A stretch of DNA of 34,558 nt, taken from assembly GCA_947305865.1 (NCBI GenBank), contig CAMZEU010000005.1, positions 1-34,558 of the forward strand. The letters run 5' to 3'. Position numbers and translations under genes: made by a program. Within the stretch, counting starts at the first letter, position 1; every line of letters begins with the position of its first letter. Origin of the DNA: an uncultured Clostridia bacterium. Lineage in GTDB: Bacteria; Bacillota; Clostridia; Christensenellales; CAG-917. The notes under the pieces are model-generated. The model worked only from the letters and a program-made list of their open reading frames with translations, did no database searches and was not told the origin of the DNA. Positions 1 through 27,396 of the stretch are shown piece after piece.

Positions 1-2134
1 AGATAATTCCTGTTACTTGACCTTTATCGTTTACAAGAACTTCCTTTGGACCCCAAGCATTGCAAATCTCAACGTTTTCTTCGAGAGCTTCTGCAACTTC
101 TTCTTTGCTTGCTGGCATTTCTTCTCTTGTTTCAAGAGAGAACATTTTAACTGATTTTGCATTTAATCTATGTGCATTTCTTGCACAGTCAATAGCAACG
201 TTGCCACCACCAACAACTACAACATCTCCTGTGAAGTCTTTTCTGTCTTCATAGTTCTTTCTGAGATATTCTACTGCGATGTCTGTTCCTTCTGCTGTAT
301 CATTTGCAACACCAGGTCTTCTTCCGCCTTGGCAACCAATTGCAATATAGAATGCTTTGTATCCTTCTGCTTTGAGTTGTTCTATTGTGATATCCTTACC
401 AACTTCTACTCCAGTCTTAATCTCTGCACCAAGTTGTCTAATGACATCTATTTCTGCTTCGATAACGTCTTTTTCAAGTTTGTAACTTGGGATACCATAT
501 GTTAACATACCACCGAGTTTCTTATTCTTTTCGAATACTGTTGGTTTGTAACCCATTTCTGCAAGATAGTATGCTGCTGATAATCCAGCTGGACCGCCAC
601 CGATGATAGCAATCTTTTCATCAAACTTGCCATATACAGATTGAACAACTTTCTCTGGCACATAACGGTCTTTAGAATTTAATTCTAAATCTGCTACGAA
701 TTTCTTAACTGCATCGATTGAAACTGGTGCATCAATCTTTCCTCTTGTACATTCTGCTTCACAACGTTTATTACATACTCTACCACAAACACTTGGGAAT
801 GGGTTTTCTGTCTTAATCATTGCAAGAGATTCACGATATTTTCCTTGTTTTGCAAGGTCTAAATATGCTTGAATTGGTACATGAGCTGGACATGCTGCTT
901 TACATGGTGCACTACCTTTGTCATATGTATTGGATTTAACTTGGTTATCTCTATAGTCTTCGTCCCATGCATATTCACCCCATCTGATTGCATCTGGAAG
1001 TGGAACATGTTTGTACTTAACTTCGTTTCCTGCTTTGTCACAAAGCTTTTGTCCAAGTTTAACAGCACCTGCTGGACAGATTTCTACGCACTTTCCGCAA
1101 GCAACACACTTTTCTTTTGTAACTCTTGATGTATATGCGCTTCTTGAAAGGTTTGGTGTGTTGAATAACATTGATGTTCTTAATGCGTTACAAATTCTTA
1201 CGTTACAGTTACAGATATCAAAGATATGTTCTGAACCGTCTATGTTTGTAATTTGGTGTACATAACCATTCTTCTCTGCTAAAGCAAAGATTTCGAGTGC
1301 TCTTTCTTTTGTAATATAGTGTGCACGTTTTGTTTCAACTGTGTAGTCTGCCATATCACCTAATTGGATACACCAGTCATTGCAGTCGTCTGTACATCCA
1401 TCACCTAATACTGCACGTGAAGCACGGCAAGAGCAAATACCAGCTGAAATATGACCTTCATATTTATCAAGCCAGTGTGAAATGTGTTCAAGGTCTACTG
1501 ATTCGTTCTTTGCATCAATTTTTTGATCTAAAGCAATAGACTTAACTGCTTTATCTGCATCATCAATTGCTTTTTCAACTGGGATAACGTGCATACCAAT
1601 ACCCATACCACCAGGTTGAACCATTTGTGTGATATTTGCAAGAGGTATAAATGTCATTCTTTCAAAGAAAGAAGTAACTGCTGGGTTTTTCTCAATTCTA
1701 TCTAATGATGAATTGAATAATTCTGCTGAACCTGGTACGAAGAAAGGAACACGATAACGTTTTGTACGTGGGAAATTCTTTTCGTCATTAATTGGATGGT
1801 CATGAGCATAACGGTCTGAATAGTCATATTCAATAATTCCAATATATGACATATCGTCCAACAATTTTTGGAAATCGATTGCTTCGTATTGTGGGTTCAT
1901 TTTGAGTAATTCTTCGAAATAATAGAATTTACGAAGTTTCATTTTGTTACAAACATCTACCATCTCTGGTGTAAGAACTTCTCTTAATCCCCAGTATTCT
2001 GGATGATCTGCTTTAACACCAAGTAATTTGTGTGGAACAACGTCTGTAATCCTTTGACCAAGTTTGCAGTATGCCTTTTGGACATCCTTCTCATTTTGGT
2101 ACTTACTGATAATCTTATCGTTCTGTTTTGGCAT
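1..2134 (-). CDS. FAD/NAD(P)-dependent oxidoreductase, GltD-like, with N-terminal 4Fe-4S ferredoxin region (C-terminus truncated by window edge)
   Basis: Hand translation of the minus strand from ATG at 2134 (MPKQNDKIISKYQNEKDVQKAYCKLGQ...) stays open to the window edge. It contains CSCRASRAVLGDGCTDDCNDWC, CVACGKCVEICPAGAV (4Fe-4S), CKAACPAHVPIQAYL and CGRVCNKRCEAECTRG (GltD-type Fe-S), then IAIIGGGPAGLSAAYYLAEMGYKPTVFEKN (FAD Rossmann) and VVVVGGGNVAIDCARNA (NAD(P) Rossmann). SD-like GGAG upstream. Absent from the ORF track, presumably because it has no stop in the window. Confidence 0.9.
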   Translation of the reverse strand, partial: MPKQNDKIISKYQNEKDVQKAYCKLGQRITDVVPHKLLGVKADHPEYWGLREVLTPEMVDVCNKMKLRKFYYFEELLKMNPQYEAIDFQKLLDDMSYIGIIEYDYSDRYAHDHPINDEKNFPRTKRYRVPFFVPGSAELFNSSLDRIEKNPAVTSFFERMTFIPLANITQMVQPGGMGIGMHVIPVEKAIDDADKAVKSIALDQKIDAKNESVDLEHISHWLDKYEGHISAGICSCRASRAVLGDGCTDDCNDWCIQLGDMADYTVETKRAHYITKERALEIFALAEKNGYVHQITNIDGSEHIFDICNCNVRICNALRTSMLFNTPNLSRSAYTSRVTKEKCVACGKCVEICPAGAVKLGQKLCDKAGNEVKYKHVPLPDAIRWGEYAWDEDYRDNQVKSNTYDKGSAPCKAACPAHVPIQAYLDLAKQGKYRESLAMIKTENPFPSVCGRVCNKRCEAECTRGKIDAPVSIDAVKKFVADLELNSKDRYVPEKVVQSVYGKFDEKIAIIGGGPAGLSAAYYLAEMGYKPTVFEKNKKLGGMLTYGIPSYKLEKDVIEAEIDVIRQLGAEIKTGVEVGKDITIEQLKAEGYKAFYIAIGCQGGRRPGVANDTAEGTDIAVEYLRKNYEDRKDFTGDVVVVGGGNVAIDCARNAHRLNAKSVKMFSLETREEMPASKEEVAEALEENVEICNAWGPKEVLVNDKGQVTGII

Positions 2135-2151: not shown

Positions 2152-2814
2152 TTATTTGTTTGTTTTCCTTTTAAAAAATTCTACAACATCATCTATTCCA
2201 TCACCCTTCTTTGCAGAGATAGGAATAACTGTTGCGTTTTTGTTTCTGTAACTAATGTTTCTTCTAACATTTTCCATACTGAAATTGAAGTATGGGAGAG
2301 TATCTATTTTATTAATTAGAACTAGCTCGCACTTTTGGAAAATAAGAGGATATTTTAATGGCTTATCATCCCCTTCTGGAACAGAAAGAATCATCATGTC
2401 TAAATGTGCTCCTGTATCATACTCTGCTGGACAAACCAAGTTCCCAACATTTTCCAAAAATACAAGATCCAAATCTTCCAATCCGAGTTCCATTAGTCCT
2501 TGTGTAGTCATACCTGCATCCAAGTGGCACATACCACCAGTATGGAGTTGAATAGATTTACAACCCGTTTCTTTTGCTACTTTTATAGCATCTACATCCG
2601 AGTCTATATCTGCTTCCATAATTCCTACACGGAGGAATTTTGAGAGCTTATTAATAAGAGCAATTAATGTTGTTGTTTTTCCAGCACCTGGAGAAGACAT
2701 TACATTAACTAGAAAAACTCCTTTGTCCTTTAAGAACAAGCGGAGTGCATCTGCTTCTTTATCATTCTCTTCAAAAACGCTTTTAGATAGGACTATTGTT
2801 CTAACTTCTTTCAT
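2152..2814 (-). CDS. HypB-like SIMIBI GTPase (hydrogenase/urease Ni-insertion family), paralog 1
   Basis: Walker A SSPGAGKTT, EADIDSDVDA, HTGGMCHLDAGM, FLENVGNLVCPAEYDTG, LSVPEGDDKPLKYP, LINKID; the HypB G-domain metal-site Cys-His and Cys are retained. Start placed at MKEVRT (2814) with AGAGGAG just upstream; the ORF-track start (GTG at 2844) lies inside a hairpin. Confidence 0.85.
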   Translation of the reverse strand: MKEVRTIVLSKSVFEENDKEADALRLFLKDKGVFLVNVMSSPGAGKTTTLIALINKLSKFLRVGIMEADIDSDVDAIKVAKETGCKSIQLHTGGMCHLDAGMTTQGLMELGLEDLDLVFLENVGNLVCPAEYDTGAHLDMMILSVPEGDDKPLKYPLIFQKCELVLINKIDTLPYFNFSMENVRRNISYRNKNATVIPISAKKGDGIDDVVEFFKRKTNK

Positions 2815-2830
2815 ACTCCTCTTATATAAA

Positions 2831-2863
2831 TGTAGGACTCCCACAAAAAGTGGAAATCCTACA
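2831..2863 (-). promoter_or_regulatory. Intergenic hairpin between the FAD-oxidoreductase and hypB-like 1
   Basis: TGTAGGA(ctc)CCAC-AAAAA-GTGG(aaa)TCCTACA: 7 bp plus 4 bp stem with a symmetric internal loop. It fills most of the gap between stop (2878) and start (2814). Confidence 0.55.
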
Positions 2864-2877
2864 CCAATATTTATATT

Positions 2878-4338
2878 TTAGAAGAATCTACCTACGATAT
2901 CTTTACTTGCAGCACATGTGTCTTCCATATCACCGAAGGAAATAATTTCTCCAGCATAGAATGTGTTCTTTGTTCCTTGGAGTGCTTCGAGTTTGTCATA
3001 CCAACCATCTGCATAATCTTGTGCAGATACGTGTGGACAATAGTAAACTTCTTGTGCAAAGTGTTTTTCTTTGATTGGGAAGCCAACTCTCTTCATATCT
3101 TCGTCCATTGTCTTCATAACATCATCGAAATCCTTGTCTGGAGAACCTGTGTGGTTAGCAAGAGCATAAACAGTTGCTGGACAGTCTCTGTCAAGACATT
3201 GCCAACGATTGTAATAAACCATTGCGTGTCCAAGTCTTTCTGGAACCATGTTTTCAACCATGTAACCTGAAATGTTAGGGCTCTTTCCTGGTTCGAATGT
3301 TGCAATGTAGTCACAGTATCTTTCATGTACGATCTTTGCAAAGAGTTCTGCTTCTTCTTTAGTTGCATCTGCATATTTTGCAAACCAATCAAGTGGTGTT
3401 GTTACAACGAGTTTGTCGAATTCTTCTGTTGTTTCTTTTCCGTCTTTGGATCTAATTGTTACAAGAACTTTACCCTCTGGACGTTCAACCTTAACAACTT
3501 CTGTTTCAAGAATTGCTGGGTGTTTAAGTTTGTCATTAACTCTCTTGTAGATTTCTTGTGTTCCATCTTGCCATGTCCAAAGTCTAAGGTTAACAAATTC
3601 AAGTGCTGTTGTAACGTCTAAGTACTTCATAACAAGAGCTGCTGGGATTTCATCAAAGAATCCATAACCGAAAGATGTAAATGGAGCAATCCAAATTCTC
3701 ATAACTTCTTCTACTCCATTGAGTTTACAGAATTCTGCGAAAGGAAGTGCTAAATCTTTAAGATTTGGGTTTGTTCCCTTGATGTAGTTAGGGAATGAAT
3801 TTTCAGCTGTTGCACCACAGTGTCCATCAACACCTTTGGAAATTCCATAGTATTCACCCTTTGCAACACCGATGTGGCCATAACAGTCATAACCAACATA
3901 CTTTGTTTGCATGAGTTCGTTTAATTTCTTCATTTGTTTCTTAAGTTTGAGAAGTCCAAATAATTTCTTGAAAGAGAAATTTGCCTTTGGATTTGTCCAT
4001 TCATCTACTACGCCATCAAGTGTACGGAATTCACGGCGCATATTTGGTTCGCCTGGTTTGAAGTCTGGTCCCTTGTGATAGTAACCACCGAATTCTTCCA
4101 TTTCTGATACTGCATGATATGTGATTGCACCCATAATTGCACCAGTTTCAAAACTCTTTTCTTCTGTCTTTCCATTGTGTGTGACTTTGAGTTTTGGAGA
4201 CCAGCATTTTCCACCAACTTTGTTTAACTTTTCATAGATAACGTAGTTGGAATAACCTTTCTTTTCAAGGTACATTGCGGTAGATAATCCTGCAGGACCG
4301 CCACCAATAATACAGATTCTTTCATTTGTGTTGCTCAT
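2878..4338 (-). CDS. FAD-dependent (amine-oxidase-like) oxidoreductase
   Basis: 486 aa; N-terminal ICIIGGGPAGLSTAMYLEKKGYSNYVIYEKLNKVGGKCWSP dinucleotide-binding motif; C-terminal YAGEIISFGDMEDTCAASKDIVGR resembles the FAD-contact end of the amine-oxidase family. AAGGAGATT RBS. Confidence 0.8.
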   Translation of the reverse strand: MSNTNERICIIGGGPAGLSTAMYLEKKGYSNYVIYEKLNKVGGKCWSPKLKVTHNGKTEEKSFETGAIMGAITYHAVSEMEEFGGYYHKGPDFKPGEPNMRREFRTLDGVVDEWTNPKANFSFKKLFGLLKLKKQMKKLNELMQTKYVGYDCYGHIGVAKGEYYGISKGVDGHCGATAENSFPNYIKGTNPNLKDLALPFAEFCKLNGVEEVMRIWIAPFTSFGYGFFDEIPAALVMKYLDVTTALEFVNLRLWTWQDGTQEIYKRVNDKLKHPAILETEVVKVERPEGKVLVTIRSKDGKETTEEFDKLVVTTPLDWFAKYADATKEEAELFAKIVHERYCDYIATFEPGKSPNISGYMVENMVPERLGHAMVYYNRWQCLDRDCPATVYALANHTGSPDKDFDDVMKTMDEDMKRVGFPIKEKHFAQEVYYCPHVSAQDYADGWYDKLEALQGTKNTFYAGEIISFGDMEDTCAASKDIVGRFF

Positions 4339-4380
4339 AAATAATCTCCTTTTTTGTTTTTTTGATATTATGGTATGATA

Positions 4381-4409
4381 ATTATATCATTTTTAATTAC
4401 TAGAGTAAA
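4381..4409 (-). promoter_or_regulatory. Sigma70-type promoter for the FAD-oxidoreductase gene
   Basis: On the minus strand: TTTACT (4404-4409), 17 nt spacer, TATAAT (4381-4386), upstream of ATG at 4338. Confidence 0.6.
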
Positions 4410-4441
4410 TATATATTTAGTTTTACTTAAATATTATATAG

Positions 4442-5116
4442 CTAAATGCGAATCGTTTTTGTGATTTGATCAGTTAGATACTCGCATAATTCATCTACTC
4501 CATCTTGTTTTACAGCCGAAGTTACAAACACTTTTGCATCCTTATTTCTATATGCAATATTCTTTTTTGCCTTTTCTACATCGAAATCAAATGCAGGAGC
4601 TACATCCATTTTTGTTAAAGCCACAACAGATGCAACTTCAAACATTAAAGGATATTTCAAAGGCTTATCATCGCCTTCTGGAACAGATAATAAAACTAGA
4701 TTTTGTGTTGCACCCGTATCGAACTCTGCTGGACATACCAAATTGCCTATGTTTTCTAAGATAACGAAATCGACATCATCTATTCCAAGTTCTACCAATG
4801 CCTCCCAAGACATTTGACAAGTGATATGACAAGCACCTCCAGTGTGCATCTGCATAACCTTAACTCCGGTTTGTTCTGCTATAGTTTTTGCGTCTACATC
4901 TGAGTCTATATCCGCCTCGATTATCCCTATTCTAAACTTGTCTTTTAGCCTATTTACTAGTTGTACTATAAGCGTTGTTTTTCCACTTCCTGGCGAAGCC
5001 ATAACGTTAAGATAGAAAATCCTTTTTTCAGCTAAGTCTTTTTTGATTTGTTTAGCTTGTTCGTTGTTTCTTGATTTAATGTCTTCTTTTATTTCTACAA
5101 TTTTATACTCTTCCAT
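4442..5116 (-). CDS. HypB-like SIMIBI GTPase, paralog 2
   Basis: 224 aa; ASPGSGKTT, EADIDSDVDAKTIAEQTG, HTGGACHITCQM, ILENIGNLVCPAEFDTGAT, LSVPEGDDKPLKYPLMF, LTKMDV; extensive identity to the 2152-2814 product. Confidence 0.88.
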   Translation of the reverse strand: MEEYKIVEIKEDIKSRNNEQAKQIKKDLAEKRIFYLNVMASPGSGKTTLIVQLVNRLKDKFRIGIIEADIDSDVDAKTIAEQTGVKVMQMHTGGACHITCQMSWEALVELGIDDVDFVILENIGNLVCPAEFDTGATQNLVLLSVPEGDDKPLKYPLMFEVASVVALTKMDVAPAFDFDVEKAKKNIAYRNKDAKVFVTSAVKQDGVDELCEYLTDQITKTIRI

Positions 5117-5126
5117 ATTTCCTCTT

Positions 5127-5687
5127 TTATGCAGTTAATACTGGGATTATTAAATTGAAGTAGTTATCTGCCATTTCCTCAGGTGTTTTATCACAGTTTC
5201 TATTTACCCACCAAAGTGTTAATTCTGTTAATGTTGTGATTAAATGATTTGCAAGTAAACTTTCGTCCATTTTTTTACATTCATATTCTTTGAATATGTA
5301 ATCATATACCAATTCGTTTAAATGCTCTTTTAAATCTTGTATAAATATTTCTTTACCTTCCGAATTCAAAATGCCTTTTATTTCATCTTTATCTTCAGCA
5401 AAATGGTAGAACATATGAGTGATTACGTGTCTATAATCATTTGTGTGTGAAAAATCATGATGTGTCTCTGGCTCTAATTCATGACAAAAAACGTGAGAGA
5501 AAATCTCTTTGCATATTGAATGCAATAATTCTTCCTTGGTTTTATAGTGTTCGTAAAAAGTGGATCTACAAATATCTGCTGTATCCAAAACATCTTGAAT
5601 TGTAATTTCAGAATATTTCTTTGTTTGTAATAACTGAGAAAATGCCCCTCTAATTGCCTTAATAGTTTTTGCTTTTCTCCTGTCCAT
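5127..5687 (-). CDS. TetR/AcrR family transcriptional regulator
   Basis: 186 aa; N-terminal HTH TIKAIRGAFSQLLQTKKYSEITIQDVLDTADICRSTFYEHYKTKEELL is typical of TetR_N. Confidence 0.9.
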   Translation of the reverse strand: MDRRKAKTIKAIRGAFSQLLQTKKYSEITIQDVLDTADICRSTFYEHYKTKEELLHSICKEIFSHVFCHELEPETHHDFSHTNDYRHVITHMFYHFAEDKDEIKGILNSEGKEIFIQDLKEHLNELVYDYIFKEYECKKMDESLLANHLITTLTELTLWWVNRNCDKTPEEMADNYFNLIIPVLTA

Positions 5688-7702: not shown

Positions 7703-8909
7703 AAAAATTGCATTCGTTTTATCTGTAGTTTTAGTGCTTGCACTAATGTTATCTATGCTCGTTGGATGCTTAGATAAAAAAGGTAACAACCATGAACAAC
7801 CAAGTGGTGGGAATACTCCATCAGCATCAAACGTAATTACTGTGACAGATATGTTTAACAGACAACACACAATAGATACAAATGCTATTAATAGAGTTGT
7901 TTGTGTTGGTGCAGGTGCCTTAAGACTCTACACTTATGTTGGAGATATGAGCAAAATCGTTGCAGTAGAAGAAATTGAATCAAAAGCTTCTATGTCAGCT
8001 AAGTTCGTATCAAAGAGACCATACCAAGTTGCTTATAATGATCAATTTGTTTCTTTAATTAATGCACATAAGACAGTTGGAGCAGGTGGACCTCAAGCCC
8101 AAAGTCTAGCCATTGATGCAATTTGGGAACAAGAACCAGATATCGTATTCTCTTGCTTAACATTATCTGCAGATGACCTTGCAACTGCAGAACAACAATT
8201 AGGTTGCCCAATCATTTCATTAAAGTATGGTGCTGAAAAAGCATTCTCACAAGAAATCATCCAATCTATTCAGTTAGTTGGCAAGATTATGAATGCAGAA
8301 GCAAAAGCAACAACTTTAACAAATTATATGTCTTCTCTAAAGACAGATTTGGCATCCAAAACACAACAAAATGGAAAGAGCGTATTCCTAGCATGTAACT
8401 CTAACTGGGGAACAAAGGGATTTTTATCTACATCTAAGAACTATCCACTCTTCACTATTTCTGGAATCACAAATGTAATGGACAATCAAGCTTACACACT
8501 TACAGAAGGTTTTGCAGACATGGAAGATGTTTTAGCAACCAACCCAGATGTTATCCTTTTAGATGCAGGTGGTCTTGCAACATTCAAAGGAGATTATAAT
8601 AAAGATGGTTCTCTCTTGCCTGGACAACTTGCAGGATTGGATGCATGGAACAACAAAGAAGTCTATCTTATGATGCCAAACAATGCCTATGATGCAAACG
8701 TTGAAATGTACTTTATTAATGCATATTATGCATTAACAGTTGCTTATCCAACAGTATACGGAGCAAATGGTACAAACCCAATTAACATTGAAACAAAGGC
8801 AACAGAAATCCTTAATGCATTCTTCGGAGCAAACAAGGTTGCTTACAATGATATTCTTCTTTATGGTGGATATCAAAAACTTAACTTACCAGACACATGG
8901 CCTCTCTAA
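7692..8909 (+). CDS. FecB/TroA-type ABC transporter substrate-binding lipoprotein
   Basis: 405 aa; signal peptide with lipobox-like MLVGC|LDKK; VITVTDMFNRQHTIDTNAINRVVCVGAGALRLYTYVG and NPDVILLDAGG fit the periplasmic metal/chelate-binding family. Confidence 0.88.
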   Translation: MKIRKIAFVLSVVLVLALMLSMLVGCLDKKGNNHEQPSGGNTPSASNVITVTDMFNRQHTIDTNAINRVVCVGAGALRLYTYVGDMSKIVAVEEIESKASMSAKFVSKRPYQVAYNDQFVSLINAHKTVGAGGPQAQSLAIDAIWEQEPDIVFSCLTLSADDLATAEQQLGCPIISLKYGAEKAFSQEIIQSIQLVGKIMNAEAKATTLTNYMSSLKTDLASKTQQNGKSVFLACNSNWGTKGFLSTSKNYPLFTISGITNVMDNQAYTLTEGFADMEDVLATNPDVILLDAGGLATFKGDYNKDGSLLPGQLAGLDAWNNKEVYLMMPNNAYDANVEMYFINAYYALTVAYPTVYGANGTNPINIETKATEILNAFFGANKVAYNDILLYGGYQKLNLPDTWPL

Positions 8910-9478
8910 TAAGTGAAATAGCAAGCAAAGAATTCTTTGATGAATTATCTAAAACCTGGGACTCTACCAACACAAAAAGTCCCAGTGTTGTCTTTGCTAA
9001 TATAGAAATAAAAAAGGATGACCAAGTCCTAGATGTTGCATGTGGTACTGGAGTATTAGAACCATACCTATGCAAACTTACGAACAAGAAAGTTATTGGT
9101 ATAGATATTTCAGATGGAATGATTGAGAAAGCAAAAGTAAATAATGCATCTTTAAATGTTGAATACATCGTTGGTAGTTTTTATGACTACAACAAAGGTG
9201 GTTTTGATAAAATCATTGTTTACAATGCTTTCCCTCATTTCGTTGTTTTGGAAAAATTCAAACAAGCCTTATACAACAACCTAAAAAATGGTGGCGAGTT
9301 TATTATTTGCCACTCCCTATCTAGAGCAGAATTAGACCAACATCACATCAAATGCTCTGAAAATATTTCTAGAAGTTTACAAGAAGTTGAAAAAGAGGCG
9401 GATTTCTTTAAGGATATTTTCCAAATAACAACTGCAAAAGAGGATGACCACTCATTTGTAATAGTTGGTAAAAAGTAG
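8897..9478 (+). CDS. Class I SAM-dependent methyltransferase
   Basis: 193 aa; motif I DQVLDVACGTGVLEPYL, IGIDISDGMIEKAK, FDKIIVYNAFPHF. Start overlaps the end of the binding-protein gene by 13 nt. Confidence 0.85.
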   Translation: MASLISEIASKEFFDELSKTWDSTNTKSPSVVFANIEIKKDDQVLDVACGTGVLEPYLCKLTNKKVIGIDISDGMIEKAKVNNASLNVEYIVGSFYDYNKGGFDKIIVYNAFPHFVVLEKFKQALYNNLKNGGEFIICHSLSRAELDQHHIKCSENISRSLQEVEKEADFFKDIFQITTAKEDDHSFVIVGKK

Positions 9479-11328: not shown

Positions 11329-12255
11329 TTATCTTAAGAAGCCGTTTACTATCTCTTCTTCAGCCTCTTTTTCTGTAAGGCCGAGAGTCATTAATTTGTC
11401 TAATTGTTCTCCAGCAATCTTTCCAATAGCAGCTTCGTGAATAAGCCTTGCTTCTGTAGTATGAGCATTTACCATAGGTACTGCATCCACTTGTCCGTTG
11501 TCCATCAAGATAGCGTCACACTCTGTGTGTCCGTTACATCTGTTGTTTCCGTTTACGCAAGAAATATATTTTTGATATGAGTCCTCAGTTGCTACAGAAC
11601 GAGAGATAACATGTGCCCCACTGTCTACTCCATCCAAATCTACAAGGAAATCTGTAGTGGCCTTTTGGTGTCCATGTGTTAATATCTTTTCTCTTATAAC
11701 AAGAATAGCTCTATCTCCAAGCTTTGCTTTTGTCTTTCTATATGTAGAATCCACTCCTCTAATTTGAGAAGTCTCCATCTCCATATATCCACCTTCATCT
11801 ATTTCAACTTCTGTTGTTGGATTTAAGATCTTTTCTCCAGTTCCTTCGCCTTCACCATAATGGTTTTCTACATACTTAACTTTTGCATTCTTTCCAACGT
11901 GGAAAGCGTGAATACCATCATGCTCGGATTTAAGACCACCAGCATTGTGAATTCCACAACCTGCGACTATTAATACATCTGCGCCTTCGCCAATGTAGAA
12001 ATCATTGTATACAAGGTCATCTAAACCAGTTTCAGTTAGAATAACTGGGATGTCTACTCTTTCGTTCTTTGTGCCTGGCTTAATAATGATATCTATCCCT
12101 GGTTTATCTGTCTTAGTTTGGATATCTATATTGGCTGTTGTTCTACGTCCAGCAAGAGCTCCATTTGAACGAAGATTATATGCACCTTCTGGAATTTCTT
12201 CATATCCAGCAATTTCTTTTAACATATTCTTTTGAATTGCACTTAGCTCGCTCAT
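11329..12255 (-). CDS. SufB/SufD-family Fe-S cluster scaffold, short (SmsB-like) form
   Basis: 308 aa; IVAGCGIHNAGGLKSEHDGIHAFHVGKNAKVKYVENHYGEG, GDRAILVIREKILTHGHQKATTDFLVDLDGVDSGAHVISRSVA, HTECDAILMDNGQVDAVPMVNAHTTEARLIHEAAIGKIAGEQLDKLMTLGLTEKEAEEEIVNGFL. Confidence 0.9.
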   Translation of the reverse strand: MSELSAIQKNMLKEIAGYEEIPEGAYNLRSNGALAGRRTTANIDIQTKTDKPGIDIIIKPGTKNERVDIPVILTETGLDDLVYNDFYIGEGADVLIVAGCGIHNAGGLKSEHDGIHAFHVGKNAKVKYVENHYGEGEGTGEKILNPTTEVEIDEGGYMEMETSQIRGVDSTYRKTKAKLGDRAILVIREKILTHGHQKATTDFLVDLDGVDSGAHVISRSVATEDSYQKYISCVNGNNRCNGHTECDAILMDNGQVDAVPMVNAHTTEARLIHEAAIGKIAGEQLDKLMTLGLTEKEAEEEIVNGFLR

Positions 12256-12263
12256 ATTTCACC

Positions 12264-12983
12264 TCACATATTATCTGCAAGAGTCTTGCAAACATTTGCG
12301 GACAATAGTCCAGGAAGGATTTCATCTTTTGGTCCATCTTGAGAAACTTTGCCACTTGTAATAACAATTACTCTTTGAGCCATATTTAAAATACGCTCTT
12401 GGTGTGAAATGATAAGAATAGAACCATTTGTTTGTTCTTCTAATTTTTCAAAGACTGAAATAAGATTGTTAAAACTCCAAAGATCTATTCCAGCTTCCGG
12501 TTCATCAAAGAGAGTAAGTTTAGGAGATTTTGCCATTGCTGTTGCAATTTCAATTCTCTTTAATTCTCCACCACTTAATTCGTTGTTTACTTCTCTGTCT
12601 ACATATTCTCTAGCACAGAGACCAACTTGAGAAAGGTATGAACATATTTCTGTTACATTAAGTTTTTTACCACTAGCAATAGAGATTAAATCTCTAACCG
12701 TAATTCCTTTGAACTTAACTGGTGCTTGGAATGCATATCCAATACCAAGTTTAGATCTGTCTGTGATGGACATTTCTGTAATATCTGTGCCATCAAAGTA
12801 AATCTTGCCACTAGTTGGTTTATATAAGCCCATTATGAGTTTGGCAAGAGTACTCTTACCACCACCATTAGGACCTGTAAATGCAACAAACTTCTCATCT
12901 ATCTTGAGAGAAATGTTGTCTATAATTTTCTTTTCACCAAATTCTGTTTGTACAGCAAAGGTGACGTTCTTTAGTTCTAACAT
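12264..12983 (-). CDS. SufC-family Fe-S assembly ATPase (SmsC-like)
   Basis: 239 aa; TGPNGGGKSTLAKLIMG, GIGYAFQAPVKFKGITVRDLI, LSGGELKRIEIATAMAKSPKLTLFDEPEAGIDLWS. Confidence 0.92.
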   Translation of the reverse strand: MLELKNVTFAVQTEFGEKKIIDNISLKIDEKFVAFTGPNGGGKSTLAKLIMGLYKPTSGKIYFDGTDITEMSITDRSKLGIGYAFQAPVKFKGITVRDLISIASGKKLNVTEICSYLSQVGLCAREYVDREVNNELSGGELKRIEIATAMAKSPKLTLFDEPEAGIDLWSFNNLISVFEKLEEQTNGSILIISHQERILNMAQRVIVITSGKVSQDGPKDEILPGLLSANVCKTLADNM

Positions 12984-23954: not shown

Positions 23955-25178
23955 TTACGCTGAGAATACTGCCATTAAGAAACCAGCCGCAACTGCAGAT
24001 CCTATAACACCTGCAACGTTTGGTCCCATAGCATGCATTAGCAAGTAGTTGCTTGAATTGTACTTCAAACCTACTTGGTTACTTACTCTAGCTGCCATTG
24101 GAACAGCAGATACACCTGCTGAACCGATGAGTGGGTTGACCTTGCCTCTAGAAAGAACATATAAGAGTTTGCCAAGGAGTAATCCACAGATTGTAGCGAA
24201 TACAAATCCTGCAAGACCTAAAGCAATAATCTTTAATGTGCTTAGAGATAAGAAGTTTGTTCCAATTGCTGTAGCACCAACTGAGATACCTAAGAACAAT
24301 GTAACAATATTCATTAATGCATTTGAAGCAGTATCTGAAAGACGAGCTGTAACGCCTGTTTCTCTTAAGAGGTTACCAAACATTAAGCATCCGAGAAGTG
24401 GTGCGACTGAAGGTAATACTAAGCAGGTTAATAGTGTAACTATTATTGGGAATAAAATCTTCTCTCTCTTTGTTACAGGTCTTGTTGGCTTCATCATAAC
24501 CATTCTTTCCTTTGGTGTTGTTAATGCCTTCATAAGAGGAGGTTGAATCAAAGGAATTAATGCCATATATGAATATGCTGCAACTGCAATAGGCGCAAGT
24601 AAATTTGGTGCTAATGATTTAGTTAACCAAATAGCTGTTGGGCCATCTGCTCCAGCAATAATTGAAATAGATGCTGCCTCACCACCATTGAATCCCATCA
24701 TGCAAGCAAAGAAGAATACGATATAAATACCGCCTTGTGCTGCTGCGCCAAGTAATAATGACTTAGGATTTGAAATCAAAGGTTCGAAGTCTGTCATTGC
24801 TCCTACACCGATGAAGATTAAGCAAGGATAAACACCTGTCTTTACGCCAATATAAAGAATATCTAGCAAACCACCATTTTGAAGAATATATCCGTAATTG
24901 ATATGTCCTTCTGCATCCATGGCAGGAGATATGCCACCTTCAAAGCCTTGACCAGTCCACCATGTTGCATGGAAGATAGAATCTGAGATATTCCCTACTG
25001 GCAAGTTTGTTAACAAAATTCCAAACGCAATTCCTACGAGAAGAAGAGGTTCGAATTTCTTCTTAATAGCGAGGTATAACAAGATGCATGCTATTACTAG
25101 CATGACAATGTTTTGCCAAGTAAAATTAGCAAAGCCACTTGTTCCCCATAATTCTTTTAATGTTTCACCAATATTCAT
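23955..25178 (-). CDS. oadB: Sodium-translocating decarboxylase beta subunit (OadB/GcdB/MmdB family)
   Basis: 407 aa polytopic; ILLTNLPVGNISD, MTDFEPLISNPKSLLLGAAAQGGI, FNGGEAASISIIAGADGPTAIWLTKSLAPNLLAPIAVAAYSYMALIPLIQPP, SAGVSAVPMAARVSNQVG, HAMGPNVAGVIGSAVAAG. Confidence 0.95.
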   Translation of the reverse strand: MNIGETLKELWGTSGFANFTWQNIVMLVIACILLYLAIKKKFEPLLLVGIAFGILLTNLPVGNISDSIFHATWWTGQGFEGGISPAMDAEGHINYGYILQNGGLLDILYIGVKTGVYPCLIFIGVGAMTDFEPLISNPKSLLLGAAAQGGIYIVFFFACMMGFNGGEAASISIIAGADGPTAIWLTKSLAPNLLAPIAVAAYSYMALIPLIQPPLMKALTTPKERMVMMKPTRPVTKREKILFPIIVTLLTCLVLPSVAPLLGCLMFGNLLRETGVTARLSDTASNALMNIVTLFLGISVGATAIGTNFLSLSTLKIIALGLAGFVFATICGLLLGKLLYVLSRGKVNPLIGSAGVSAVPMAARVSNQVGLKYNSSNYLLMHAMGPNVAGVIGSAVAAGFLMAVFSA

Positions 25179-25187
25179 TTTCTAACC

Positions 25188-25574
25188 TCACTGAATCTCG
25201 CAAAGTGGTGCGCCTGTTTCTACTGTTGCGCCTTTTTGTACGAAGATATTTGCTATCTTTCCATCTCTATCTGCTGGGATATCATTTTCCATCTTCATTG
25301 CCTCGAGGATGAATAATACATCTCCTTTCTTAACTGTTTGTCCAACTTGAACCTTAACTGCGTTAATTGTTCCTGGAAGAGGTGATTTAACTGCATTTCC
25401 ACTTCCTGCTGGTGCAGGTGCTGCTGCAGGAGCTGCTTGAGCAACTGGTGCTTGTGGTGCTGCTACTGGTGCTGCAACTGGAGCTGCTGCTTCATATTCC
25501 TTTTGGATAATTGCTTCACCCTTTTCTACATCTACTTCATAAATCTTTCCATTTAATGTTACTTTGTAAATCAT
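25188..25574 (-). CDS. Biotin carboxyl carrier protein of the decarboxylase complex
   Basis: 128 aa; Ala/Pro-rich linker AAPVAAPVAAPQAPVAQAAPAAAPAPAG, then SPLPGTINAVKVQVGQTVKKGDVLFILEAMKMENDIPA with biotinyl-Lys motif EAMKM. Confidence 0.94.
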   Translation of the reverse strand: MIYKVTLNGKIYEVDVEKGEAIIQKEYEAAAPVAAPVAAPQAPVAQAAPAAAPAPAGSGNAVKSPLPGTINAVKVQVGQTVKKGDVLFILEAMKMENDIPADRDGKIANIFVQKGATVETGAPLCEIQ

Positions 25575-25575
25575 C

Positions 25576-26004
25576 TTATTTCTTCTCCTCTTCCACTAAT
25601 TTAATAGACTTAAAATGCAATTGATTTAATGGAGTTTCAAGAGTATCTGCAACAATTGCCATAATCATGGCTGCATCTCTATCTGAGGTATTAACTAATA
25701 CCAAGTCTCCACATGAACCCTTTGCAAGTTCTTCTGTATTTTCTGTTGTTTCTGTTGCTGTAGTTGCTGCTTTCTTTTTCTTTGGCTTAAATGCATCTTT
25801 AACTTTTTGCACGAATGCTGCATATTTTGGATGTTTTTCTGCAAATCCTTGAGTTTTGGTCATCAATAAACCAACTAAGTAAAGAATTCCCATTAAGAAA
25901 GCAAGCACTACGAAAACAATTGCTATACCAATAAGCGCTATATATAGCGAATCTAGTACACCAACTTTATCTGTTTTGGATAATGCCGCTAAAATAACTT
26001 CCAT
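25576..26004 (-). CDS. Decarboxylase gamma subunit (OadG-like)
   Basis: 142 aa; single N-terminal TM SLYIALIGIAIVFVVLAFLMGILYLVGLL, position between OadA and BCCP, low-complexity linker. Confidence 0.8.
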   Translation of the reverse strand: MEVILAALSKTDKVGVLDSLYIALIGIAIVFVVLAFLMGILYLVGLLMTKTQGFAEKHPKYAAFVQKVKDAFKPKKKKAATTATETTENTEELAKGSCGDLVLVNTSDRDAAMIMAIVADTLETPLNQLHFKSIKLVEEEKK

Positions 26005-26007
26005 GTA

Positions 26008-27396
26008 CTAGTCCTCCTTTATAGGCTCGATTGTGTACTTAACAACTTTTTCTTCTCTCTCTTTACGAGCTGCGAAGTATTTTTCTGTTACTTGTGGGAA
26101 AGCAATATATGATAGAACTTCTTCATCATTTCTTGCAATGCCCTTTAATTCTTCTTTTGTCTTTTCGAATACTGGTTCTAAGGAGTCTGCATATCTTCCT
26201 TCTACTGGTTTAACATCTCCTAAAACTTTCTTCTTAACATCTTCATTTATCTTTCCAGGAGCAGTGCCATATTCACCACGACAGTATGCAATAACTTCTT
26301 TAGAGATATTTTTATATCTCTCACCAGCGAGGACATTTGCTGTTGCTTGTACACCAACCATTTGGCTCATAGGTGTAACAAGTGGAGGATATCCTAAATC
26401 TTCTCTTACCTTTGGTGTTTCTTCTAAAACAGCATCAAATTTATCCATAGCATTTTGTGCTTTCAATTGTGAGATAAGGTTAGAAAGCATACCACCAGGA
26501 ATCTTGTATACAAGAGCATCTGAGTCTGTAGACAATGCCTTTGGATCTAACTTTCCTTCTTTTACAAATTGGTCTCTAATTGGTTTAAAGAAGTCATTTA
26601 CTTCTTTAAGAACCTTTGCATCCAATCCTGTATCATATCCAATTTGTGTTAATGCATAATGAATTGTTTCTGTTGAAGGTTGGCTTGTACCACCGCTGAA
26701 ACATGATGTTGCTGTATCTATAACATCTACGCCAGCTTCAACTGCTGCATAATATGTCATATAAGCCATACCTGTTGTGCAGTGTGTGTGAAGTACTACT
26801 GGAATCTTAACTTGCTTTTTAATTGCTGTGATAAGTTCTGTAGCCTCACCTGGACTCATTGTTCCAGCCATATCTTTAATACAGATTGTTTGTACACCCA
26901 AGTTTTCCATTTGTTTTGCATATTCTGCAAAAGCTTTAATGGTATGTACTGGGCTTTGGGTATAGGAAATAGTACCACTTACTGTTGCACCTTTCTTAAT
27001 TGCTTCGTCTGTTGCAACTTCAATGTTTCTAATATCATTGAGTGCATCAAAGATACGAATAATGTCTATACCATTGTCTACTGACTTATCTACAAACATT
27101 CTTACAACCTCGTCTGGATAATGCTTATAACCTAAAATGTTTTGTCCTCTTAATAACATTTGAAGTTTTGTATTTGGCATTCCCTTACGAATCTTTCTTA
27201 ATCTTTCCCATGGATCTTCATTGAGGTATCTTAAACATACATCAAATACTGCTCCACCCCAACATTCACTAGAATAATATCCAGCTTTGTCCATTGTTGG
27301 TAAGATATCTGCAAACATATCAAATGGCAATCTTGTTGCTATTAATGATTGGTTTGCATCACGTAACACTGTCTCGGTTAAACCGATCTTCTTCAT
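26008..27396 (-). CDS. oadA: Oxaloacetate decarboxylase alpha subunit (carboxyltransferase domain, no biotin domain)
   Basis: 462 aa; ETVLRDANQSLIATRLPFDMF, ECWGGAVFDVCLRYLNEDPWERLRKIRKGMPNTKLQMLLRGQNILGY, IFDALNDIRN, CIKDMAGTMSP, VVLHTHCTTGMA. Confidence 0.94.
   Translation of the reverse strand: MKKIGLTETVLRDANQSLIATRLPFDMFADILPTMDKAGYYSSECWGGAVFDVCLRYLNEDPWERLRKIRKGMPNTKLQMLLRGQNILGYKHYPDEVVRMFVDKSVDNGIDIIRIFDALNDIRNIEVATDEAIKKGATVSGTISYTQSPVHTIKAFAEYAKQMENLGVQTICIKDMAGTMSPGEATELITAIKKQVKIPVVLHTHCTTGMAYMTYYAAVEAGVDVIDTATSCFSGGTSQPSTETIHYALTQIGYDTGLDAKVLKEVNDFFKPIRDQFVKEGKLDPKALSTDSDALVYKIPGGMLSNLISQLKAQNAMDKFDAVLEETPKVREDLGYPPLVTPMSQMVGVQATANVLAGERYKNISKEVIAYCRGEYGTAPGKINEDVKKKVLGDVKPVEGRYADSLEPVFEKTKEELKGIARNDEEVLSYIAFPQVTEKYFAARKEREEKVVKYTIEPIKED

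Follow-up and report, generated by a model that had tools for sequence, protein, structure and literature searches.

Two HypB-type GTPases of an uncultured Clostridia bacterium probably load nickel onto an adjoining protein of the IsrA family, and the operon that holds them probably forms a unit for the anaerobic biohydrogenation of polyunsaturated fatty acids. The window that we analysed, 34,558 nucleotides in length, covers the full length of contig C5 in a draft genome (1.3 Mb, 110 contigs, about 76% complete). On its minus strand the genes follow each other in the order tetR, hypB2, a gene for a relative of the polyenoic fatty acid isomerase (PAI), hypB1 and an isrA-type gene, within which the contig ends. 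The features of the locus are as follows.

5127..5687, minus strand: TetR-family regulator (PF00440 and TetR_C_8), first gene of the operon
4442..5116, minus strand: hypB2, IsrA-linked HypB GTPase of 224 aa (TIGR00073, 222.6 bits), which groups with the matching copies of other operons
2878..4338, minus strand: PAI-type polyenoic fatty acid isomerase relative (FAD), matched to 2b9w by sequence and fold
2831..2863, minus strand: hairpin between the PAI-type gene and hypB1, TGTAGGATTTCCACTTTTTGTGGGAGTCCTACA, kept in loci L015 and L016
2152..2814, minus strand: hypB1, IsrA-linked HypB GTPase of 220 aa with an ATG at 2814 (TIGR00073, 215 bits), placed by the tree
2..2134, minus strand: Fe-S flavoprotein assigned to the IsrA family by its domains and six-cysteine site, truncated by the contig end to 711 of about 974 aa
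5829..9478, plus strand: divergent operon of FecCD permease, FecE ATPase, substrate-binding protein and methyltransferase

The preliminary description had placed an FAD oxidoreductase between the two HypBs, in the company of a second Fe-S flavoprotein, a TetR regulator and a metal/chelate-type ABC importer. This arrangement stands: the FAD protein (4338-2878) lies between hypB2 and hypB1, and the Fe-S flavoprotein (2134 to the contig end), the regulator gene tetR (5687-5127) and the importer, a divergent FecCD/FecE/PBP set, are all present. The identity of the FAD protein, on the other hand, had to be corrected to a relative of PAI-type isomerases. By sequence, the nearest solved structure is 2b9w, a fatty acid isomerase (PAI) from Propionibacterium acnes that produces conjugated linoleic acid (CLA); phmmer gave an E-value of 3e-100 for it and 3e-8 for the next. 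An AlphaFold model of the protein (19 homologues, pLDDT 83.6) matched 2b9w with an E-value of 5e-46 and a target TM of 0.94, and the next fold match stood at 6e-23. The fold, the FAD motif and the substrate-site residues are common to the two proteins; a comparison of 14 close PAI-type proteins showed the equivalents of Arg88, Phe168 and Phe193 conserved in every one. These three were reportedly described by Liavonchanka in 2006 as the substrate-site residues of PAI. The window's protein differs from the P. acnes enzyme in its company, a reductase and nickel chaperones, and in an insert at about 158-193, which clostridial PAI-type proteins carry, which 2b9w lacks and which was modelled with low confidence at 170-181. 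Because the same fold also covers amine oxidases and CpaO, the PAI sequence leaves the substrate unfixed. A plasmid search with the flavoprotein gave weak matches only, and a single-protein scan of genome contigs matched only two very close relatives.

The PAI-type gene goes together with the hypB-isrA cassette. Among 200 sampled genomes, all 12 that carry a PAI gene were found within the 20 that carry the IsrA-linked HypB type; the hypergeometric chance of this overlap is about 2e-14, a figure that ignores kinship (4 families). When 396 genomes were drawn, the number with PAI rose to 24, and 10 previously unseen ones served as a check. Six of these 10 (families f24, f14, f32, f19 and f1) had the order hypB2-PAI-hypB1-isrA-hypA, or the part of it held by the contig; two had an IsrA-type gene nearby in another arrangement, one had PAI alone within 20 kb and one was cut by the contig end. 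Conservation of the neighbourhood, proposed in the preliminary description as a check, was borne out: two hypB genes, PAI and isrA recur in 13 of the 24 PAI genomes, from 7 families, and in a 14th the contig end cuts the locus before hypB2. An IsrA-type gene lay within about 10 kb of PAI in 20 of the 24; of the other four, two had the cassette elsewhere, one was contig-cut and one is unexplained. Since the sampled genomes are related, these counts are not independent. The class sample held two PAI matches outside the source genome (one distant, 28%), both in genomes with an IsrA-type gene. Many IsrA-type cassettes lack PAI, and therefore other substrates must exist.

The Fe-S flavoprotein can be assigned from its sequence to the IsrA family, by architecture, cysteine spacing and neighbours as described in PMC10134865. 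The full-length relatives in the genus-mates (L015 and L016) are 974 aa long and consist of a Pfam-free N-terminus, a 4Fe-4S motif, Fer4_20, a GltD-like FAD/NAD(P) domain and, at the C-terminus, a second 4Fe-4S motif. An architecture of this kind, at a length of about 900 aa, marks the IsrA family (clade 9 oxidoreductases); Kronen et al. (2023, PMC10134865) describe it for IsrA itself, a putative isoprene reductase from Acetobacterium wieringae. The CxC motifs C234/C236 and C308/C310 are spaced by 74 residues, and those of IsrA, at 180-182 and 254-256, are likewise 74 residues apart (PMC10134865). All six cysteines of the six-cysteine site were invariant in 36 homologues. The gene adjoins hypB and, in the genus-mates, hypA, as isrA does, and among the neighbours of 988 IsrA homologues, HypA (0.73), HypB (0.56), DUF5692 (0.4) and TetR (0.21) were reported (PMC10134865); each of the four was seen again in our loci, and TetR and DUF5692 are neighbours common to these loci and to the wider family. 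No fold match at E<=0.001 was found for the N-terminal model, and nothing matched the six-cysteine part; the DsrD-like winged helix 1ucr stands out for the N-terminus (probability 0.99, target TM 0.69). The organism that carries IsrA can reduce isoprene, and strain Y, an isoprene reducer, can reduce 1,3-butadiene as well (PMC10134865). Both compounds are conjugated dienes, the type of product that PAI makes. IsrA is only putative as the isoprene reductase, and nickel in it is unproven (PMC10134865). In A. woodii and A. fimetarium, an oleate hydratase lies near the IsrA homologues (Kronen et al., PMC10134865).

These observations leave some room for another polyene substrate. It is unlikely, if still worth weighing, that the same machinery acts on a terpenoid, a plant polyene or a carotenoid-like lipid instead of dietary C18 fatty acids. 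The proposal of isoprene for IsrA, the varied substrates of PAI-fold enzymes, the insert not found in 2b9w and the phytoene-desaturase-like proteins in some related clusters (L021, L022 and L025) would all fit such a substrate. However, the closest solved relative is by far a fatty acid isomerase, whose Arg88, Phe168 and Phe193 have kept equivalents, and the genes flanking other PAI copies, for an AMP-binding ligase, an acyl carrier protein (ACP) and an acyl-ACP thioesterase (L021-L026, L152-L154 and L157), are a fatty-acid setting. The same flanking genes would suit an operon that tailors the cell's own acyl chains, in membrane or secreted lipid, and not free dietary fatty acids. We consider this improbable, as the ligase, ACP and thioesterase genes are absent from the window-type operon and the substrate of the P. 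acnes PAI is linoleic acid in free form (PMC13365329). In four loci (L021, L022, L025 and L152), the genes that come after PAI encode a phytoene-desaturase-like FAD protein, a 2Fe-2S FNR-like reductase and an IsrA-type protein, and no hypB is nearby.

The absence of hypA, which the preliminary description had remarked on, holds for what is in view, but only because the contig ends inside the preceding IsrA-type gene. In L015 and L016, the start of hypA (PF01155) lies no more than a few bases from where that gene ends. The MH(D/E) motif of HypA was found in 43 of 48 ORFs and the zinc cysteine motif in all 48. A HypB pair without HypA was rejected, since the genus-mates have hypA shortly after the point where the window's contig stops. 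The idea of a GTPase pair serving a non-hydrogenase target is thus to be kept for its target, given the HypBs' own branch and conserved neighbourhood, and dropped for the free-standing pair, as hypA completes the set. The likely target is the adjoining IsrA-family protein and not the bracketed FAD protein, because hypA and hypB accompany isrA even where PAI is missing.

Both HypBs score far above the curated TIGR00073 hypB cut-off of 121.2 bits and are 48% identical to each other. A longer hypB1 with a GTG start at 2844 would begin within the hairpin. The motifs pointed out earlier, Walker A (SPGSGKTT / SPGAGKTT), HTGGxCH and NLVCPAE, are kept and align with the HypBs of H. pylori (4lps) and M. 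jannaschii (2hf8), with which the window's copies have the G domain and the Cys-His and Cys metal residues in common. The draft genome holds exactly two HypBs, both in the window. A HypB profile search of 200 genomes of the order gave two separate groups of scores, 325-382 and 194-218 bits. As the profile was made from the first, high-scoring group, a tree is the fairer test. In a quick tree without bootstrap, 47 IsrA-linked HypBs split from 9 canonical ones with an SH-aLRT of 100, and both window copies were placed outside canonical HypB. The two fall into different sets of the tree, each with matching copies from other operons; the duplication is therefore older than these species. All 47 IsrA-linked HypBs have His before TxGxCH, whereas the canonical ones have Asn (8) or Thr (1). 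By contrast with canonical HypB, the partner gene is isrA and not a hydrogenase gene: the high-scoring hypB genes examined adjoin an IsrA-type gene, hypA or both, whether PAI is present or not.

Within the window the preliminary description had seen no hydrogenase or urease gene, and the search of the draft genome for hypD, the NiFe large subunit, urease, prismane/CODH and larA found none either. Nor was a hyp/hydrogenase operon that would lack a hypB of its own found elsewhere in the draft genome. These absence claims are weakened by the draft state of the genomes. Among the 20 genomes with IsrA-linked HypB, hypD and the NiFe large subunit were found in one, which also has a canonical HypB, and were not found in the other 19, most of them >90% complete. 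The source genome has an FeFe hydrogenase, the maturation of which, to our knowledge, makes no use of HypA or HypB. We rejected a canonical hydrogenase or urease role for the window's HypBs on the strength of the draft-genome searches and the tree.

That the client of HypA and HypB is a nickel enzyme encoded outside the operon, or that the metal they handle is not nickel, is quite improbable. In favour, IsrA is not proven to contain nickel, the draft has a completeness of 76% and the extra His at the HypB metal site could alter the metal preference; on the other hand, hypA and hypB stay beside isrA across the class, the HypA motifs are kept at the frequencies given above and no other known client was found in the draft genome. 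Least probable of all, to the point of being negligible, is that these are canonical HypBs whose NiFe hydrogenase or urease the assembly has missed: the draft is incomplete and both proteins pass the TIGR00073 cut-off, but the lack of hypD and NiFe in 19 of 20 genomes with this HypB and the separate branch with its own His signature speak against it.

We thus favour nickel loading of the IsrA-type protein in a fatty acid biohydrogenation operon, which would work in two steps. First, the PAI-type flavoenzyme would shift one double bond of a methylene-interrupted polyunsaturated fatty acid of the linoleic or linolenic type and give a conjugated diene. Second, the IsrA-type enzyme would reduce the conjugated diene to a mono-ene, as an electron sink and/or for detoxification, with electrons passing presumably from NAD(P)H to FAD, the 4Fe-4S clusters and the six-cysteine site. 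HypA, HypB1 and HypB2 would deliver nickel to the IsrA-type enzyme, most simply at the six-cysteine site; nickel loading of IsrA by HypA/HypB was also suggested by Kronen et al. (PMC10134865). Ruminal biohydrogenation is known to begin with isomerisation and to go on with reductions (PMC6037716). The strong hairpin at 2831-2863 may hold isomerase transcripts above those of the downstream genes. TetR might control the operon, perhaps as a fatty-acid sensor; its gene has the same position in L015, L016, L018, L019 and L110, and an operator search found AT-rich palindromes (TTTACT...AGTAAA) upstream of tetR, kept in genus-mates only. The divergent importer set, also present in L015, L019 and L110, is a possible metal-chelate importer, and its link to nickel is one that we infer.

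The hypA-hypB-isrA core is already known. The operon of the putative isoprene reductase in A. wieringae ISORED-2 consists of isrA, two hypA, hypB and a ferredoxin gene (PMC10134865), and has in common with our loci the IsrA-type flavoprotein, the six-cysteine site with the same CxC spacing, and HypA plus HypB. The A. wieringae genome has no NiFe hydrogenase or hypCDEF (PMC10134865), and in the source draft neither the NiFe large subunit nor hypD was found. The window-type operon differs in that hypB occurs twice and hypA once, that no additional ferredoxin gene was seen, that a PAI-type isomerase lies inside the operon, and that its hosts are gut or rumen Clostridia; a rumen origin is known for one close relative only (L015). 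Linoleic acid and the rumen are not mentioned in PMC10134865, and a literature search with partial coverage and few subscription journals found no publication that pairs HypB with a linoleate isomerase or biohydrogenation. The coupling to PAI therefore appears new as far as we found. The CLA-HY/DH/DC/ER pathway of Lactiplantibacillus plantarum would give the same net saturation of linoleic acid, by contrast via hydroxy and oxo acids and with unrelated enzymes (PMC13365329).

This conserved operon of uncultured gut and rumen bacteria offers strong candidate genes for the oxygen-free saturation of dietary polyunsaturated fats. More tentatively, an operon dedicated to anaerobic biohydrogenation may join linoleate-type isomerisation to a nickel-dependent conjugated-diene reductase, be spread through uncultured Clostridia of gut and rumen together with a HypB branch of its own, and possibly be a source of the trans-10 route of biohydrogenation in ruminants. 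Trans fatty acid intermediates bear on milk fat and the human diet, so the operon genes would be useful as markers if the proposal is true. It would also give the large uncharacterised IsrA enzyme family a natural substrate, account for the persistence of HypA/HypB without hydrogenases, and point to a nickel enzyme working on unactivated conjugated C=C bonds. The operon provides one isomerase and one reductase, which can be expressed and assayed jointly.

Several further features were seen around these cassettes. The membrane protein family DUF5692 (PF18948, confirmed for L095:2215-3261) adjoins the hypB/isrA/hypA cassette in eight class-level loci (L094, L095, L096, L097, L102, L103, L104 and L105). 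Directly upstream of hypB and isrA in two of them lie distant PAI-like flavoproteins (L104:10660-11919 and L105:10647-11900; about 23-28% identical) with Tyr at the Phe168 position and DUF5692 nearby. A class-I methyltransferase family with an HSxS...H motif repeatedly occurs beside or inside the hypA/hypB/isrA operon (window 8897-9478, L092:11312-12070, L105:4344-5447, L111:3585-4733, L147:8333-8932, L150:8155-9330 and L151:7898-9040), and is fused to an ECF transporter S-component in L111, L150 and L151; one might guess at a role in nickel uptake. In A. wieringae, a methyltransferase with its gene outside the isrA operon was also induced with isoprene (PMC10134865). Elsewhere in the window, a SufC-like ATPase gene and, after it, a 308-aa SufB/D-like gene (11329-12983), both named from sequence only, possibly make up a minimal Fe-S cluster assembly system, and the cluster at 23955-27396, likewise named from sequence only, looks like a sodium-pumping oxaloacetate (or related) decarboxylase.
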